64,000 nt of DNA from Nitrospira sp. (GTDB lineage: Bacteria; Nitrospirota; Nitrospiria; Nitrospirales; Nitrospiraceae): assembly GCA_024998565.1 (NCBI GenBank), contig JACOEM010000002.1, forward strand, positions 464,522-528,521, read 5' to 3'. The notes beneath the pieces were generated by a model. It made no database searches. It saw nothing but the letters and a program-made list of their open reading frames with translations, and was not told the DNA's origin. Below are positions 2,059 through 12,449 of the stretch, piece after piece; position 1 is the stretch's first letter, and each line of letters starts with the position of its first letter. A program made the position numbers and the translations under genes.

Positions 2059-2170
2059 GTGAAACGTGGGACGTGAAAGGTCAAACGTGAAAGGTAAGAT
2101 GCGAGGATTGAATGTTGAACAGCAGCCAGCTCTCTTCAGGCCCTCTCACCTTTTACGTTGTATGTTTCAC
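2059..2170. repeat. GTGAAACGT-type inverted repeat, copy A
   Basis: This intergenic stretch has arms at 2059-2081 and 2148-2170 that are imperfect reverse complements (GTGAAACGTGGGACGTGAAA against GTGAAACATACAACGTAAAA). Within the arms the unit ACGTGAAA is repeated. It separates the two radical SAM paralogues and ends just before the ribosome site of the second one. Related copies lie at 4427-4510 and 9109-9178. Confidence 0.65.
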
Positions 2171-2181
2171 GGAAGAGGATT

Positions 2182-4143
2182 ATGAGTAGCTCCGGCTTGG
2201 TTCAAATCGACGGTCTGAGTCCGATCAGGAAAGAGGATCGGAAGACTTCCAAGGTCATGTTGTTGTTCCCGCCGGAGTGGGTGCCGACGGCGCCCTATCT
2301 CGCCTTGCCCGCGCTCACCTCCGTGTTGCGGGAGGCGGGGCACACCGTGGTGCAGCGCGACATCAACATCGAGATGTACGACCATTTCTTCACCATGGAG
2401 TTTTTAATCTGGGTGAAGGGGCGACTGGGCATGCAGCTGAAGCCGCTTCAGGACAAGGAAAAGGCGGGGAGGCTCACGGAACAGGAAGCCGCTCAGAAAG
2501 CGGTCTTGGAAGAGGCCTATGCGGTAGACGTGTTCGACCTGGCGGACCGGGCTGAAGATGCCAAGTTGGTCGTGCGGGGCGAACGGTTCTACGACGCAGA
2601 AAAGCTGGAGCGGGCGCTGAATACCTTCCGCGAAGCGATGCAGTACATTTCCGCGGCTTATTATCCCGCCTCGCTCGTGTTTTATCCGATGGAAAGTAAT
2701 CTGAGCTATCGGCCCGGTGTCTCGAAGGAAGTCTTCGCCTGTCTTGACGACGAACAGGTGAATGTCTATCGCGACATCTGCAATCAACTCGTGTTGCCCA
2801 GCGTGAGCAAAGAAAAGCCGGCGGTGATCGGCATCTCCATCGGCACGCAGATGCAGTTGATGGCGGGTCTCACGTTCTGCAAGATGATCAAGGAAAGTTT
2901 TCCCGACATCCACGTCGTGGTCGGCGGCAACGTCGTGACGCGGTTGCAGGAAGAGTGGGCGAAGCATGAGCGTTTCTTCACCGAGGTGTTCGACGCGGCC
3001 ATTTTGTACGAGGGCGAACATGCGCTGCTCTGGTACATCGAGGCGATGAACGGACAGCGCGCAATCGAGTCGGTGCCCAACCTCATGTATTACGAGTCCG
3101 GCGCGGTACAGCAGAGCAAGGAAGTGTACACGGAGAAAACGGCGGCGCTGCCGTTGCCGGACTTCGACGGCTTGCCGCTGGATCACTATTTCGTTCCTGA
3201 ACGGATCATTCCCTATCTCGCGACGCGCGGCTGCTACTGGGGCCGCTGCACCTTTTGCGATCACGGCCAGGGGTATTTCGATCAATACCGCGGCATGACG
3301 GCGCAGCATGTGGTCGAGCAGGTGACGGCGCTGCGGGATAAGTACCAGTGCAAACACTTCTTGTTCTCCGACGAATCTTACCCGCCCGCGTTGTTCAAGA
3401 AGGTGTCGCAGCTGCTGGTGGACCGGAACGTCGGTATCAAGTGGACGACGCTGATCCGTTTCGAAGAGACCTTGCAGGATCAGGCGGTCTGGGATCTGGC
3501 GGCGAAGGCGGGCTGCTGCACGCTCTACTACGGGATGGAGTCGGCGAACGAGCGCGTGCTGAACCTCATGGACAAACACGCGAAGAAGAGCGTGATTCAG
3601 AACAACCTCCATCAGGCGGCGAAGGCTGGTATCTGGAACCACGTGATGGCGTTTTACGGCTTTCCCGGCGAGACGCGGGAGGAGGCGCTGGAGACGCGGC
3701 AGTTCGTCATCGAGAACCAGCCGGTGATTCACTCCGTGGAGCTGTTCTACTTCGTGGCCTACCGCCACACGCCGATGGTGCGCAACCCGGATAAGTTCGG
3801 CATCACGATCCACAAGCAGGAAGAGTACGACCTGCCGCTGGATTACTATTACACGCTGAACGAGCCGGTGGGCATTTCCTGCCTCGATGCGATGCAGCTC
3901 TGTGAAGAATTTTATAAGAACGACTTCCGCCCTTGGGCGGTGCGGGTGAACAGCCGCGAGCATGTGTTCCTCTATATCTCCAAGTTCGGCACGAATAAGC
4001 TGCCGCAGATCTATGCGGCCACGAAGGACGGTGCGACGACGGCCGAAGGTGTCTCCGGTCTTGTGACCTGGCCGATGGCGATCGGTGAAGGGGATGAGGG
4101 AAAAGAGGGGATGTCTCGCGTGGTCTCCCACGGCGTGGGATAG
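2182..4143 (+). CDS. cobalamin-binding radical SAM protein (second of tandem pair)
   Basis: This 653-residue protein is a close, collinear paralogue of the gene before it. It has the KVMLLFPPEW start of the cobalamin-binding domain, the same long insert, and RGCYWGRCTFC with C351, C356 and C359 (CX4CX2C). The start at 2182 is chosen over an in-frame ATG at 2158 because GGAAGAGGA lies 2-10 bases before it and the earlier ATG sits inside repeat A. The C-terminus carries about 30 extra, acidic residues compared with the paralogue. The stop TAG is the first triplet of a structured repeat. The two may act in sequence or as a heterodimer on the same unknown substrate. Confidence 0.88.
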   Translation: MSSSGLVQIDGLSPIRKEDRKTSKVMLLFPPEWVPTAPYLALPALTSVLREAGHTVVQRDINIEMYDHFFTMEFLIWVKGRLGMQLKPLQDKEKAGRLTEQEAAQKAVLEEAYAVDVFDLADRAEDAKLVVRGERFYDAEKLERALNTFREAMQYISAAYYPASLVFYPMESNLSYRPGVSKEVFACLDDEQVNVYRDICNQLVLPSVSKEKPAVIGISIGTQMQLMAGLTFCKMIKESFPDIHVVVGGNVVTRLQEEWAKHERFFTEVFDAAILYEGEHALLWYIEAMNGQRAIESVPNLMYYESGAVQQSKEVYTEKTAALPLPDFDGLPLDHYFVPERIIPYLATRGCYWGRCTFCDHGQGYFDQYRGMTAQHVVEQVTALRDKYQCKHFLFSDESYPPALFKKVSQLLVDRNVGIKWTTLIRFEETLQDQAVWDLAAKAGCCTLYYGMESANERVLNLMDKHAKKSVIQNNLHQAAKAGIWNHVMAFYGFPGETREEALETRQFVIENQPVIHSVELFYFVAYRHTPMVRNPDKFGITIHKQEEYDLPLDYYYTLNEPVGISCLDAMQLCEEFYKNDFRPWAVRVNSREHVFLYISKFGTNKLPQIYAATKDGATTAEGVSGLVTWPMAIGEGDEGKEGMSRVVSHGVG

Positions 4144-4267
4144 CAGGCTGGTGAAAACGCCATCTCCCGGCGTTCTCGGGAGCGTGTCTCCCTGCGACGT
4201 ACCGCAAGGGTACGCCTCAGTCGCCACCCTCCCTGCGGCCTTGGCATATGACGTTTTGACCAGCCTG
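4141..4267 (+). repeat. structured palindromic element, copy 1
   Basis: The element begins at the TAG stop codon of the preceding gene. Its outer arms CAGGCTGGTGAAAACG (4144-4159) and CGTTTTGACCAGCCTG (4252-4267) pair fully apart from one G-G mismatch. Inside are a stem AACGCC/GGCGTT (4155-4173) and a hairpin CGTACC-GCAAG-GGTACG near 4198-4214. No U-tract follows, so it is not a standard terminator. See copies at 4284, 6091, 7241, 8967 and 12326. Confidence 0.85.
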
Positions 4268-4283
4268 CGAGGTGCGGATTGTG

Positions 4284-4406
4284 CCGGATGCTGAAAACGA
4301 CCTCCCGCGTCGTTCTCGGTTCGTCAACATCCTCAACGTACCCCTGGGGTACGCCTCCGGTTGTGACTCGCCTGTGGCCTAGTGGGACGCCGTTTTGAGC
4401 ATCCGG
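4284..4406 (+). repeat. structured palindromic element, copy 2
   Basis: This copy lies in tandem 16 bases after copy 1 and is the only one not at a stop codon. Its arms are CCGGATGCTGAAAACG (4284-4299) and CGTTTTGAGCATCCGG (4391-4406); the outer bases differ from copy 1 on both sides, so pairing is kept. The inner stem is AACGAC/GTCGTT and the central hairpin is CGTACCC-CTG-GGGTACG; both also differ from copy 1 in a compensated way. Confidence 0.82.
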
Positions 4407-4426
4407 TGTGGATGTGGAAAATATAT

Positions 4427-4510
4427 GGCGTGAAATGAGCGACGTTAAACGTGAGATAGAAAGCTCAGTGAGTTATTGAGCGAACGTTTCACGTTTTACG
4501 TCTCACGTGC
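4427..4510. repeat. GTGAAACGT-type inverted repeat, copy B
   Basis: The stretch holds GACGTTAAACGTGAGAT on one side and its imperfect reverse complement, ending in TTTACGTCTCACGTG, on the other. It lies directly after palindrome copy 2. It also contains the stop codon and the last codons of the minus-strand gene that ends at 4496. Confidence 0.6.
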
Positions 4511-4759
4511 AGGGTTCCGCGCCTCGTCCCGGACGAGGGTGGCTGCAAGTAACGCATACGAGGCTTCGACCAGGCGGGTCATCTCTTCGGCTTTTGTGTA
4601 GGCCTGCATGTATTTCTTGGGGTTGTTGGTGAGGTTGGCGAAGCGGCGCGGGGTCCAGAGATGGAGCAGGGCGTTGCGTTTCTGATCGAGTTGTTCGCGG
4701 GTAAAGGGCTGGGAGAGCGCAAAAAGTTCCAGTGCGTCGGTGAGGCGTTTCTCGGTCAT
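4496..4759 (-). CDS. small protein with a degenerate J-domain-like fold
   Basis: This 87-residue soluble protein is not firmly assigned. Residues about 8-70 follow the helix pattern of a J domain (an LELF start, a long basic helix II, and a final helix ending in EASYALL), but the HPD tripeptide that stimulates DnaK is replaced by WTP near residue 35. If the likeness is real, it would not activate Hsp70 in the normal way. The last codons and the stop fall inside repeat B, so the repeat has supplied the C-terminus. It is transcribed against its neighbours. Confidence 0.55.
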   Translation of the reverse strand: MTEKRLTDALELFALSQPFTREQLDQKRNALLHLWTPRRFANLTNNPKKYMQAYTKAEEMTRLVEASYALLAATLVRDEARNPARET

Positions 4760-4840
4760 GTCACGGAGTCTGGCAAGTCGACGATGACCCTGTCAATCTC
4801 ACACGGGCTGCCCCAGCGGCGATAGGCGGACCGGTTCATT

Positions 4841-6082
4841 ATGCCCACCACGCTTCCTATTTTTCAGCCCACGCCGATCTTCAAAGATCGCACCGACTAT
4901 CGACAGGTGCTCATCCGGGAAATGGATGCGGGCAAGATTCCGCTGAGCCTCGGCCGGGATTGCCCGGTGAAATGCGAGTTTTGTTACGAACTCGACCACT
5001 CCTACCGCGAAACCCTGGACCCGCCGAAAACCAGCGACGAAGACTGGAAGTTCATCCTCAACTACATCAGCCGGAAGCCCACCGATCCCACGCAGTTCTG
5101 GTGCCTCGGCGGCAACGAGTTCATGGAATGGACCGACCTTTTCCTGCATCCCAAAGCGATGGAATGGGTGGAGGACTTTCTGAAGTACACCGACAAGAGT
5201 ATTCAGTTCTTCACGGTCGGGTTCGTGCATGTGCCGAAGATTCACCAATTGGTCGCGCAGTATCCCGGCCGCATCAACTTCGAGCTTTCGGTCATCACGC
5301 TCAGTGAGTATCGGCAGCGCTTGATGCCGCATGCGCCTTCGGTGAAACATCTCATGAAAGTGCTGGACGGGCCTGCTGTGTCTTCCGCCAATTTCTATGC
5401 GTTCGACAAGGACACGATGTCCAAGGACGCCGCAACGATTTCGGCGATCAACCAGCAATGCGTGCTGTGGATGGGAACGTTGACTCCGGTTCGTGGGCTC
5501 AAGGAGGAGACGGCTTCGCTCATGCGGCAAGGACGGAAGTTCCTGCCGGATGAAGCGACACAGATCTATCACCTGGGATTGCCGAATCTGCAGACCATTC
5601 ATACGGAATCCTATACGACGGCGTTCTTGAGCCGCCGGCGTATTGTGAGCCTGTTCGATTCGTTGGAATTGGAGAAGAAGGATACGGTGGTGATGGCGGG
5701 GAGTGTCCATAAAATCCTGACCATGTACCGAAAGAATCGCGCGAAGTTTCTTTACGTCCCCAATGCCTTGCTCAGCGGCGATTCCGACTGCACGGTGCTC
5801 CTGACCTTCGACGACATCGCGCGACGTCTGACTAAGGAGAAGGTGGTGCATGTGCCCAAGTGCATCATGCAGTCGGGGCGTGGGCCCTATACCGACATCA
5901 CCGGCGTGACGCTGGAGCAGTTCAGCAAAAAGACCGGTGTGCGGGTGAAGGTGCTGCACAAGATCGATACCCGGTTCGCCAACCAACAGCTCTACCGCCA
6001 CGGCTCGCTCCAGAACTATGTCGAGCAATACCTCAAGCATCCGTTAAGGGGTGCCTATGAGGCTATGCCGCGCCCAGTCTAG
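4841..6082 (+). CDS. radical SAM protein of unknown function
   Basis: This 413-residue protein has a canonical radical SAM site, CPVKCEFC with C41, C45 and C48 (CX3CX2C), followed by a radical SAM barrel. It has no cobalamin domain and no further cysteine-rich auxiliary cluster that I can see. The C-terminal third (about residues 300-413) is a separate region with a VTLEQFSKKTGVRVKV segment that could be a small substrate-binding add-on. The start follows a weak TAGGCGGA ribosome site. It lies downstream of the tandem B12 radical SAM genes but is separated from them by repeats and an opposing gene, so a shared pathway is only possible. Structured palindrome copy 3 follows its TAG. Confidence 0.8.
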   Translation: MPTTLPIFQPTPIFKDRTDYRQVLIREMDAGKIPLSLGRDCPVKCEFCYELDHSYRETLDPPKTSDEDWKFILNYISRKPTDPTQFWCLGGNEFMEWTDLFLHPKAMEWVEDFLKYTDKSIQFFTVGFVHVPKIHQLVAQYPGRINFELSVITLSEYRQRLMPHAPSVKHLMKVLDGPAVSSANFYAFDKDTMSKDAATISAINQQCVLWMGTLTPVRGLKEETASLMRQGRKFLPDEATQIYHLGLPNLQTIHTESYTTAFLSRRRIVSLFDSLELEKKDTVVMAGSVHKILTMYRKNRAKFLYVPNALLSGDSDCTVLLTFDDIARRLTKEKVVHVPKCIMQSGRGPYTDITGVTLEQFSKKTGVRVKVLHKIDTRFANQQLYRHGSLQNYVEQYLKHPLRGAYEAMPRPV

Positions 6083-6090
6083 CAGGGTAG

Positions 6091-6213
6091 CCGGCTGGTG
6101 AAAACGCCATCTCCCGTCGTTCTCGGTCGCATCTCTCCCTGCGACGTACCGCAAGGGTACGCCTCAGTCGCTATCCTCCCTGCGGCCTAGGCAGATAGCG
6201 TTTTGACCAGCCG
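6091..6213 (+). repeat. structured palindromic element, copy 3
   Basis: The arms are CCGGCTGGTGAAAACG (6091-6106) and CGTTTTGACCAGCCG (6199-6213). A TAG precedes the element at 6088-6090, eight bases after the gene's own TAG at 6080-6082. The central hairpin CGTACC-GCAAG-GGTACG is identical to copy 1. The first base of the outer arm differs from copy 1. Confidence 0.84.
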
Positions 6214-6311
6214 TCCCAATTCCTACTCGTTCCCCTGCTTCGCTCAGTCGCCCTCTTGCAAAAAATACCCGCTCGGGGCAACATGCCGCCAACATCTTTC
6301 GTGAGGAATCT

Positions 6312-7241
6312 ATGCCCGGTCCGAGGCGATTGCAGTTCTATCAAGCCGATGTGTTCACGGATCAGCCGTTCGGCGGAAATCCCGTCGCCGTGTTTCCCGA
6401 TGCCGATGGCCTGACCGACGTTGAATTGCAGCAGATCGCCCGCGAGATGAATCTTTCCGAAACCGTGTTCGTGTTTCCTCCGACGGACAAGGCCGCCGTC
6501 GTGAAGATGCGTATCTTTACCCCGACGCAGGAAATTCCCTTTGCCGGGCATCCGGTGATCGGGACGTTTTTTGTGCTGGCCACCTTGGACCGTCTCGCGC
6601 TTCGGGAGCCTGTCACGCGGGTGCTGCAGGAATGTAATCTTGGTCTGTTTCCTGTCGATATCCATACGTGTAACGGCGTGATCGAGCGCGTGGTCATGGC
6701 GCAGCCGAGCCCGCAGTTTCTGGATGTCATCGACGAGCCGGAAGCGCTCTTCGCGATTGCCCGCTCCTTAGGCATTACCAAGGCGGTCATTTCAGAGACC
6801 CGTTTCCCGGTGCAGGTTGTTTCTACGGGGTTGCCGGTCATCATTGTGCCGGTGCGGACGCTCACGGCGGTGCGGCAGATCATTCCCGACGTCGCTGCCA
6901 TCGCGGAATTGTCTCAGCAGTATGGCGCCAACGGCATGATGGTGTTCAGCACCATGACCGTCGAGCAGTCGTCGAGTGTGCATACGCGGATGTTCGCTCC
7001 CTTGATCGGCATCGTGGAAGATCCCGCGACCGGGAGCGCGAGCGGGGCGTTGGGTGCCTATCTGGTCCAGCATGGTGTGGTGGACATCCGGCCATCGACC
7101 GAGATTACCGCCGAGCAGGGGTATGAGATCGATCGCCCCTCCCGCATTCTGATCCAGGTGGACTCAGACGACGATGTCATTCAGGGCGTGACGGTCGGCG
7201 GACAGGCGATGATGGTGGTGGAGGGGACGCTCACCTTTTAG
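6312..7241 (+). CDS. PhzF family isomerase
   Basis: This 309-residue protein shows the PhzF/DapF fold signatures: DVFTDQPFGGNPVAV near residues 13-27, the catalytic glutamate E50 in NLSET, FAGHPVIG in the first half, and EDPATGSASGALGAYL near residue 237. Family members are cofactor-free isomerases or hydratases of small acids. PhzF itself acts on 2,3-dihydro-3-hydroxyanthranilate, but most genomic homologues have unknown substrates. There are no phenazine genes nearby, so that pathway should not be inferred. A GTGAGGA ribosome site precedes the start, and palindrome copy 4 begins at its stop codon. Confidence 0.9.
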   Translation: MPGPRRLQFYQADVFTDQPFGGNPVAVFPDADGLTDVELQQIAREMNLSETVFVFPPTDKAAVVKMRIFTPTQEIPFAGHPVIGTFFVLATLDRLALREPVTRVLQECNLGLFPVDIHTCNGVIERVVMAQPSPQFLDVIDEPEALFAIARSLGITKAVISETRFPVQVVSTGLPVIIVPVRTLTAVRQIIPDVAAIAELSQQYGANGMMVFSTMTVEQSSSVHTRMFAPLIGIVEDPATGSASGALGAYLVQHGVVDIRPSTEITAEQGYEIDRPSRILIQVDSDDDVIQGVTVGGQAMMVVEGTLTF

Positions 7242-7366
7242 CAGGACGATGAAAACGCCATCTCACTGCGTTCTCGGTCGCCCGTCTCCCTGCGACGTCC
7301 TACAAGGGTACGACTCAGTTGCCGCGCTTCCTGCGGCCTTGTGACAGAGCGTTTTGATCGTCCTGC
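7241..7366 (+). repeat. structured palindromic element, copy 4
   Basis: The element starts within the stop TAG of the PhzF gene (7239-7241). Its arms GCAGGACGATGAAAACG (7241-7257) and CGTTTTGATCGTCCTGC (7350-7366) share the inner AAAACG/CGTTTT with the other copies. The outer GGACGAT differs from GGCTGGT in copy 1 and is compensated on the far side. The central hairpin is weaker here. Confidence 0.85.
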
Positions 7367-8531: not shown

Positions 8532-8966
8532 ATGGCGAGTATTGCGCAGATCATGAACAAGAAACCCCAGAGCATTGGTCCGACGACGTCGATTCGCGGT
8601 GCGGCGAAGAAGATGCGTGACTTGCGGGTCGGTTCTCTCCTGATCAAGAAGGGGAAGAACATGGTGGGGATCGTGACCGACACGGATCTTGTCCGCAAGG
8701 GACTGGCGACCAGCCAGGATGTATCGAAACTCACGGTGGAAAAGATCATGACCACTCCGCTCTGCACCATCGAGAGCAATCGGGCGGTCGATGACGCGCA
8801 GGATATGATGGGCGATCTCGGCGTGCGCCATCTTGCGGTGACCAAGGGCGGTTCGATCGTCGGTGTGGTGTCGGTGCGCGATTTGTTGATGCACTACAAG
8901 CGGTACGCGCAATCGAAACTGGCGGATAAGCAGGTGTACTCTGAACCGAAGATCGGGCAAGACTAG
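8532..8966 (+). CDS. CBS-pair domain protein
   Basis: This 144-residue protein consists almost only of two CBS motifs (about residues 5-60 and 70-125), with the TDTDLVRK and VVSVRDLL signatures. Such stand-alone Bateman modules bind adenine nucleotides or S-adenosylmethionine and act as energy or ligand sensors on a partner. The partner is not evident here. It starts 50 bases after the alcohol dehydrogenase and probably shares its transcript. A second CBS-pair protein sits in the hem operon at 32001. The stop TAG leads into palindrome copy 5. Confidence 0.9.
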   Translation: MASIAQIMNKKPQSIGPTTSIRGAAKKMRDLRVGSLLIKKGKNMVGIVTDTDLVRKGLATSQDVSKLTVEKIMTTPLCTIESNRAVDDAQDMMGDLGVRHLAVTKGGSIVGVVSVRDLLMHYKRYAQSKLADKQVYSEPKIGQD

Positions 8967-9090
8967 GCGGATGTTGAAAATGGCCTCCAGCAGCGTTCTC
9001 AGTCGCACGGCTCCCTGCGACGTGCCGCAAGGGTACGCCTCAGTCGCCGTGCTCCCTGCAGCCTCGTTGGATGACCGTTTGGAGCACTCG
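8967..9090 (+). repeat. structured palindromic element, copy 5 (diverged)
   Basis: The copy begins right after the TAG of the CBS gene (8964-8966). The core (CTCCCTGCGACGT, then GCAAGGGTACGCCTCAGTCG) is well kept. The central hairpin is CGTGCC-GCAAG-GGTACG with one G-T pair. The outer arms (GCGGATGTTGAAAATGG and CCGTTTGGAGCACTCG) have lost part of their pairing. Confidence 0.75.
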
Positions 9091-9108
9091 TGACTGGCTG
9101 GGGATAGA

Positions 9109-9695: not shown

Positions 9696-9715
9696 ATCGA
9701 TATCCGCTGAAGGTT

Positions 9716-9760
9716 AAAAAGGCCGCCAGCATCGAACTCGCTTCGCTGGGCGGCCTTTTT
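9716..9760 (-). terminator. rho-independent terminator of the minus-strand ferredoxin gene
   Basis: The sequence AAAAAGGCCGCC-AGC pairs with GCT-GGGCGGCCTTTTT. A GC-rich stem is flanked by A and T runs, so it can end transcription from either side. It lies 29 bases after the stop of the minus-strand 2Fe-2S gene. Confidence 0.88.
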
Positions 9761-9788
9761 GATTCATCTCCTCGCTGGCGTTCGCGCG

Positions 9789-11779: not shown

Positions 11780-12325
11780 ATGGAAATGACCTTGTTGCTC
11801 AACTCCACCTATGAACCGCTTCGTGTCCTGCATTGGCAAAAGGCCATCACTCTGCTCTGGCAGGGGAAGGTCGAAGTCCTCGAAGTCTACGACCGCCAAA
11901 TCCACGGTATCTCGATCTCGATCAAGCTCCCCTCGGTGATGCGCCTCCTGAAGCTGGTGAAGCTCAAGGACAGTCATCGCGCAGTGAAGTTTTCGCGTAT
12001 CAACATTTTTACGCGGGACGGCTACTGTTGCCAGTACTGCAAGCACAAGTTCCGCACTGAGGAACTGACGTTCGACCATGTCGTGCCGATCGCGAAAGGC
12101 GGGCGGAAGACCTGGGAAAACATCGTGACGGCCTGCTGGCGATGCAATAACCGGAAGAGCGGCCGGACGCCGGAAGAAGCGAACATGCGCCTGATCAAGA
12201 AACCCGTGAAGCCGCGCTGGAGCCCGACCGTCACGATTACCATCGGGATCCGGAACACGCCGGAAAGCTGGCGGGACTATCTGTATTGGAACCTCGAGCT
12301 CGACGCGGACCCGGTCGATACCTAG
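11780..12325 (+). CDS. HNH endonuclease family protein
   Basis: This 181-residue protein carries a zinc-stabilised HNH fold. CQYC (about 89-92) and CWRC (about 128-131) form the metal knot, and LTFDHVVPIAKGGRKTWENIV provides the catalytic histidine and asparagine. The N-terminal 75 residues (LLNSTYEPLRVLHWQKA onward) are the usual lead of a widespread chromosomal HNH family found in cyanobacteria and Nitrospira. Its cellular role is not established, and it need not be a restriction or homing enzyme. A GGAG ribosome site is present. The degenerate palindrome copy 6 begins at its TAG. Confidence 0.88.
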   Translation: MEMTLLLNSTYEPLRVLHWQKAITLLWQGKVEVLEVYDRQIHGISISIKLPSVMRLLKLVKLKDSHRAVKFSRINIFTRDGYCCQYCKHKFRTEELTFDHVVPIAKGGRKTWENIVTACWRCNNRKSGRTPEEANMRLIKKPVKPRWSPTVTITIGIRNTPESWRDYLYWNLELDADPVDT

Positions 12326-12449
12326 CCGGCTGTTGAAACGGGTTGTCGTCGTCGTGTTCGCGGTGCGTACATCTTCAACGTACAAGCCAACGCGCGCCCG
12401 GCTTCTCTCTTCTTGCGTCCTGACCAAATCACCTGTTCAGACAGGCTGC
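12326..12449 (+). repeat. structured palindromic element, copy 6 (degenerate)
   Basis: The copy starts directly after the TAG (12323-12325) of the HNH gene as CCGGCTGTTGAAACGGG and ends with ACCTGTTCAGACAGGCTGC; the ends are still largely complementary. The interior has mostly diverged and keeps only fragments such as CATCTTCAACGTAC, which is shared with copy 2. Confidence 0.55.

Follow-up and report, generated by a model that had tools for sequence, protein, structure and literature searches.

The palindromic hairpins that recur in this region of a Nitrospira genome probably belong to an undescribed MITE family that is mobilized by IS5-family transposases in the Nitrospirota and retained for its fold. 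The region, hereafter the window, is the whole stretch of 64,000 nucleotides that was analyzed. An initial annotation of the window described four copies, whose palindromes, coordinates, and pairings all hold, and each of which folds on the plus strand much better than shuffled sequences (z −3.7 to −7.3). Copy 1 (4143–4267, subfamily A) adjoins the TAG stop (4141–4143) of a radical SAM gene at 2158–4143 and is followed in tandem on its 3′ side by copy 2 (4283–4406, subfamily B). Copy 3 (6090–6214, subfamily A) starts 7 nt past the stop of another radical SAM gene (4841–6082), and copy 4 (7241–7365, subfamily A), for which orthologs exist, adjoins the TTAG stop of a PhzF-like gene at 6312–7241. 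As annotated, a G stands opposite a G in every one of these copies, at 4153/4258, 4293/4397, 6100/6205, and 7251/7356.

The stretch from the start of AAAACG to the end of CGTTTT (4154/4257, 4294/4396, 6101/6204, and 7252/7355) gives four matches where 0.07 would be expected. The outer arms of copies 1 to 4 read GGCTGGT, GGATGCT, GGCTGGT, and GGACGAT and face ACCAGCC, AGCATCC, ACCAGCC, and ATCGTCC, respectively. Their first identification was incomplete: in copy 1, the arm at 4146–4152 lies within the left terminal repeat of a MITE, and the facing arm at 4259–4265 is an inverted partner internal to the element rather than the transposon's true right end. The central hairpin does shift from CGTACC/GGTACG in copy 1 to CGTACCC/GGGTACG in copy 2. 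The inner arm, described as constant, is so in copies 1 to 4 but varies with compensation across the family, where its last pair is C-G, A-T, or T-A. Similarly, the internal stems AACGCC/GGCGTT and AACGAC/GTCGTT both exist, but a local 5′ stem of this kind was rejected as a feature of the whole family because its variable positions are Watson–Crick in just 25–42% of copies. The AACGCC/GGCGTT stem competes with the main helix, and it is the main helix that covaries.

Three further plus-strand members were absent from that annotation. Copy 5 (8966–9091) is a good copy that adjoins the CTAG stop of a CBS-domain gene (8532–8966); copy 6 (12325–12448), heavily decayed, lies 3′ of the CTAG stop of an HNH gene (11780–12325); and a 65-nt derivative with an internal deletion (9706–9770) keeps an A-tract, a GC stem, and a T-tract (AAAAAGGCCGCC...GGCGGCCTTTTT). 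Relatives carry one to four tandem copies at the place of copy 5, including arrays of two to four copies with a period of ≈131 nt 3′ of the CBS-domain gene (L013:13270-13747, L069:13149-13738, and L014:5095-5482), where the window has one. The copies in the window are old, with no recognizable tail, right terminal repeat, or duplication, and their putative MITE origin rests on homology to intact relatives. Neighboring spacers (2052–2157 and 4410–4515) hold a second family of intergenic palindromic repeats, GTGAAACGTGA...TCACGTTTCAC, and relatives carry further families (TTGAACATTGAAAATTGAAC and GTGAGTGTTGAGTG) where the window has this repeat.

The intact form is seen in Ca. Nitrospira defluvii, to which the window's genome is close by orthologous loci and in which several copies are near-identical over 206–208 bp within non-homologous flanks. 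The complete unit of ≈206 bp runs from a left terminal repeat (CAGGNTGNKGAAAA...) through an imperfect hairpin of 125 nt and a tail of ≈77 nt to the true right terminal repeat. All 11 of the near-identical copies whose ends were read have the order YTAR, CAGGATGCGGAAAAAG, hairpin, tail, TTTTTCCGCARCCTG-type right end, and the same YTAR, and the 4-bp duplications seen are CTAG, TTAG, and CTAA. The left arm of the hairpin includes the left terminal repeat, and the right arm is its inverted near-copy. Nine more tail-form copies with matching duplications, subfamily B among them, are present in the window's own genome and in relatives.

A 1.3-kb element of Ca. N. defluvii (L316:1501-2816) carries CAGGCTGCGGAAAAAC ends and a TTAG/TTAG duplication, and CAGGCTGCGGAAAA is found at both of its ends and at the ends of the MITE copies of that genome. 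Its transposase matches the IS5-family model NF033581 (E 4.5e-83, 278.9 bits against a cut-off of 140) as well as PF05598 and PF01609. We found only one autonomous copy each in N. defluvii and in the window's own genome, where the IS5 relative has perfect 16-bp ends CAGGCTGTTGACAAAC, a CTAG/CTAG duplication, and a transposase that is 41% identical; five more IS5 relatives with CTAG/CTAG occur in the genome G166. Because the ends and the duplication are common to an IS5-family element, we assign the family to the IS5-type MITEs, which may be moved in trans by the IS5 transposase; YTAR is the IS5 target. Integron attC sites, considered for their location behind stops, were dropped on account of the ends and the IS5 partner, and a suspected autonomous element between the two arms at G000:C2:91745-93796 (G000 being the window's own genome) was rejected, there being no transposase at that place.

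The position of the copies relative to genes reflects the same target. By gene calls from a simple codon model, copies lie 0–6 nt past the stop of a sense gene in 44 of 89 cases in the window's genome and in 66 of 121 in other genera, with a mode of exactly 2 nt, whereas only 4 of 210 right ends have a stop facing them at such a distance (Fisher 6e-36). TAG accounts for 34 of those 44 stops in the own genome, compared with 45 of 180 in the background. YTAR targeting, which superseded an early reading of exact stop adjacency as a functional constraint after intact copies were found, explains why TAG is enriched and why the spacing is 2 nt (TAR, then CA, then GG). Against this reading, some copies stand behind TGA stops or away from any stop. 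The presence of a copy differs among relatives and protein length is unchanged, and we could rule out that the element truncates a gene and supplies its stop, since the proteins are equally long in empty orthologs. CTAG is scarce in the window (34 occurrences vs ≈230 expected from base composition), and this scarcity may concentrate suitable targets at stop codons. Downstream of the ortholog of the gene at 153–2051, element-free genomes have an overlapping TAATG stop/start (L009 and L033, 3′ of the ortholog), and in genomes with an element, it separates the two genes.

These features can be brought together in a single mechanism. A MITE with CAGGMTGNKGAAAA ends would be moved by an IS5 transposase into YTAR, duplicating 4 bp; because YTAR holds TAG or TAA and is duplicated, landing on a stop would leave the gene intact, and old copies would be met directly behind stops. 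The tail and right end would then decay beyond recognition and the hairpin would persist, presumably retained by selection on its fold (as a DNA hairpin, a terminator, or another 3′-end structure) and not by mobility alone. Old copies seldom show a recognizable tail or right end, but the hairpin is there, and its paired positions covary even among orthologous copies. The hairpin itself thus appears to be preserved after insertion.

Covariation between the arms exceeds what shared descent produces, as had been proposed from the few copies in the window. In a set of 84 sequences, double changes occur at 31 of 38 pairs and fill 394 cells, compared with 145 in shuffles. For the main test, 290 copies were aligned without reference to structure, a tree was built with FastTree, and null alignments preserving both the tree and the column rates were generated with a custom implementation rather than R-scape. 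Of 8,256 column pairs, the 12 that score highest all belong to the stem of one nested hairpin, and five of them beat all 200 null alignments; a 183-copy version of the tree-null test confirmed the covariation, which orthologous copies bear out as well. One outer-arm pair is C-G in 152 copies, T-A in 45, A-T in 28, and G-C in 21. Target-site duplication does not explain the outer arms, which are inverted and have the YTAR duplication outside them. The inner stems (columns 44–49/84–89), which are no transposon end, covary equally strongly.

Of the 290 copies, 273 retain the G-G mismatch. Per unit branch length, the other mismatches of the same helix return to Watson–Crick at a rate of 2.25 and G-G at 0.24, a difference of about nine-fold. 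Orthologous copies at the PhzF gene differ between species, their arms reading GGACGAT/ATCGTCC, GGATGAT/ATCATCC, or AAGATGAT/ATCATCTT, and none has lost the mismatch. When the arms are read in the same direction, the mismatch position is G in both true ends and C in the internal arm. This substitution would set the internal arm apart from a functional end and may keep the transposase from cutting there.

Likeness between the arms can arise in ways other than selection on a fold. Since the outer arms are a MITE end and its internal inverted partner, recognition by the transposase is a second reason for their resemblance, and template switching during replication, a process documented for RNA hairpins, is a third (PMC8794818). 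That template switching simply carries changes from one arm of the imperfect palindrome to the other, with no selection on the fold, seems unlikely to us. Events in which both partners of a pair change are frequent (156 in helix 1), and whole-element inversions at L033, L034, and L028 fit spacer inversion. However, the process would erase the G-G mismatch instead of sparing it, conserved asymmetric loops persist, and 83 of 115 branches show single rather than clustered double changes. Because G-G is kept, and because the orthologous arms change around it, blind arm-to-arm correction is insufficient, though it may contribute (PMC8794818). Less likely again is that the arms match only because one transposase recognizes both ends, so that the ends co-evolve and the hairpin has no function. 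The outer-arm variants do follow the cognate IS5 ends, CGGAAAAA in N. defluvii and TTGACAAA in the own genome, but the arm with which the outer arm covaries is the internal one and not the true right end, the inner stems lie outside the transposon ends, and old orthologous copies still compensate. We regard as highly improbable a REP/RAYT-type element moved by a Y1 tyrosine transposase, despite the resemblance of stop-adjacent palindromes with a TAG foot to GTAG REPs (PMC3733652) and the one intact Y1 transposase in the genome. A repeat-flanked Y1 partner was sought and rejected: the repeat that flanks this sole intact Y1 gene, GGGGTCAGGTCTTGCAAT (L184:980-1060), is unrelated and forms a separate repeat system, no member of the hairpin family lies near the gene, and clean 4-bp duplications with IS5 ends fit a DDE transposase.

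Selection on base pairing in RNA or DNA, as the initial annotation had it, is compatible with the covariation, which is real, but it is doubtful that the selected molecule is a cis-acting sense RNA of the 3′ UTR whose folding the covariation records, whether as a terminator, as protection of the mRNA 3′ end, or through an effect on the ribosome near the stop. The location of copies directly behind stops in sense orientation speaks for such an RNA, as do the core of A-tract, GC stem, and T-tract and the shape of the 65-nt derivative, which resembles a bidirectional intrinsic terminator. Canonical intrinsic terminators, rejected as the usual 3′ end, are not enriched (14 vs 18.2 expected in 20 kb), which also counts in its favor, and in Escherichia coli, translation is reportedly influenced by REPs that lie ≤15 nt from a stop (PMC12306157). 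Stop adjacency, however, is accounted for by YTAR targeting. Among single changes out of Watson–Crick pairs on the sense strand, A-C (164) exceeds G-U (112; p 0.002), and unpaired columns lean oppositely, with C to T above G to A. Sense-RNA folding is unsupported because these G-U intermediates are the rarer class. Of 183 copies, which are not independent, 157 fold better on the minus strand, the mean difference being 5.6 kcal/mol. Together, these results are suggestive against sense RNA and leave minus-strand DNA or RNA, or asymmetric double-stranded DNA, as the selected molecule.

With a covariance model built from 84 copies, and with 150 candidates scored per genome, we detected at least 92 copies in the window's genome and at least 116 in Ca. 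N. defluvii. Of 148 Nitrospirota genomes, 70 have members, other classes included; many of the relatives compared are metagenome assemblies. No match to the family was found in plasmid records, phage records, or viral contigs, and above the gathering score, Rfam matched two tRNAs only in the window, leaving the hairpin family unmatched. Some copies contain nested palindromic inserts of ≈50 nt at various points of the hairpin (L028:11374-11544, L033:11332-11503, L021:5130-5301, and L164:1501-1673), each a GC-rich hairpin followed by a GTGGGCGGGTGAGAAG-like sequence. Another nested insert, of ≈85–100 nt (GGAGG...CCGTTCGCC...GGCGAACGG...GTACCTCC), lies within copies at L069:13539-13738, L024:5819-6030, and L036:10380-10580.

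Returning to the MITE reading, we put forward only tentatively the broader idea that old hairpins have been domesticated genome-wide in the Nitrospirota as 3′-end modules, outlasting the remainder of the transposon through compensatory evolution and serving, when read from the strand opposite to that of the host gene, as terminators or DNA hairpin sites. Terminator, transcript protector, and DNA element are candidate roles for the retained hairpin. Roughly 90–116 MITE copies per genome make hairpins of many gene 3′ ends in these ecologically central nitrite oxidizers. Independent insertions at stop codons, datable by orthology, provide a natural experiment on whether a fold is selected, copied by template switching, or both, so that the origin of covariation in repeats becomes testable. 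The family also cautions that, among repeats, covariation does not necessarily point to a sense RNA.

IS5-family MITEs are non-autonomous derivatives of IS5-type insertion sequences, and the Nitrospira family resembles them in sharing its ends with a resident IS5-family element, in its 4-bp YTAR duplication, in being non-coding, and in its near-identical dispersed copies. It differs in its 125-nt hairpin, which the left end forms with an internal inverted pseudo-end, in its compensatory evolution and conserved mismatch, and in that most copies persist as hairpins without a recognizable right end. The enterobacterial MITEs ERIC/IRU (RU-1; 127 bp) and YPAL/RU-2 (168 bp) are similar in size and are likewise dispersed, gene-adjacent intergenic palindromes with long stems, co-transcribed in those hosts (PMC2759123, PMC2229807). 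Host and target set them apart, with TA at the termini of ERIC and variable 3–26-bp duplications for YPAL in place of a 4-bp YTAR and IS5-type ends. Correia/NEMIS elements of Neisseria are MITEs too, with terminal repeats and with transcripts that form stems (PMC2229807), although with TA at the termini, other ends, and another host. REP/BIME elements and GTAG REPs share palindromes near stops, a foot that often supplies the TAG stop, and clustering (PMC3733652, PMC12306157). REPs are 20–40 bp and RAYT-associated, however, whereas the Nitrospira family spans 125–206 bp and combines IS5-type ends with a target duplication.
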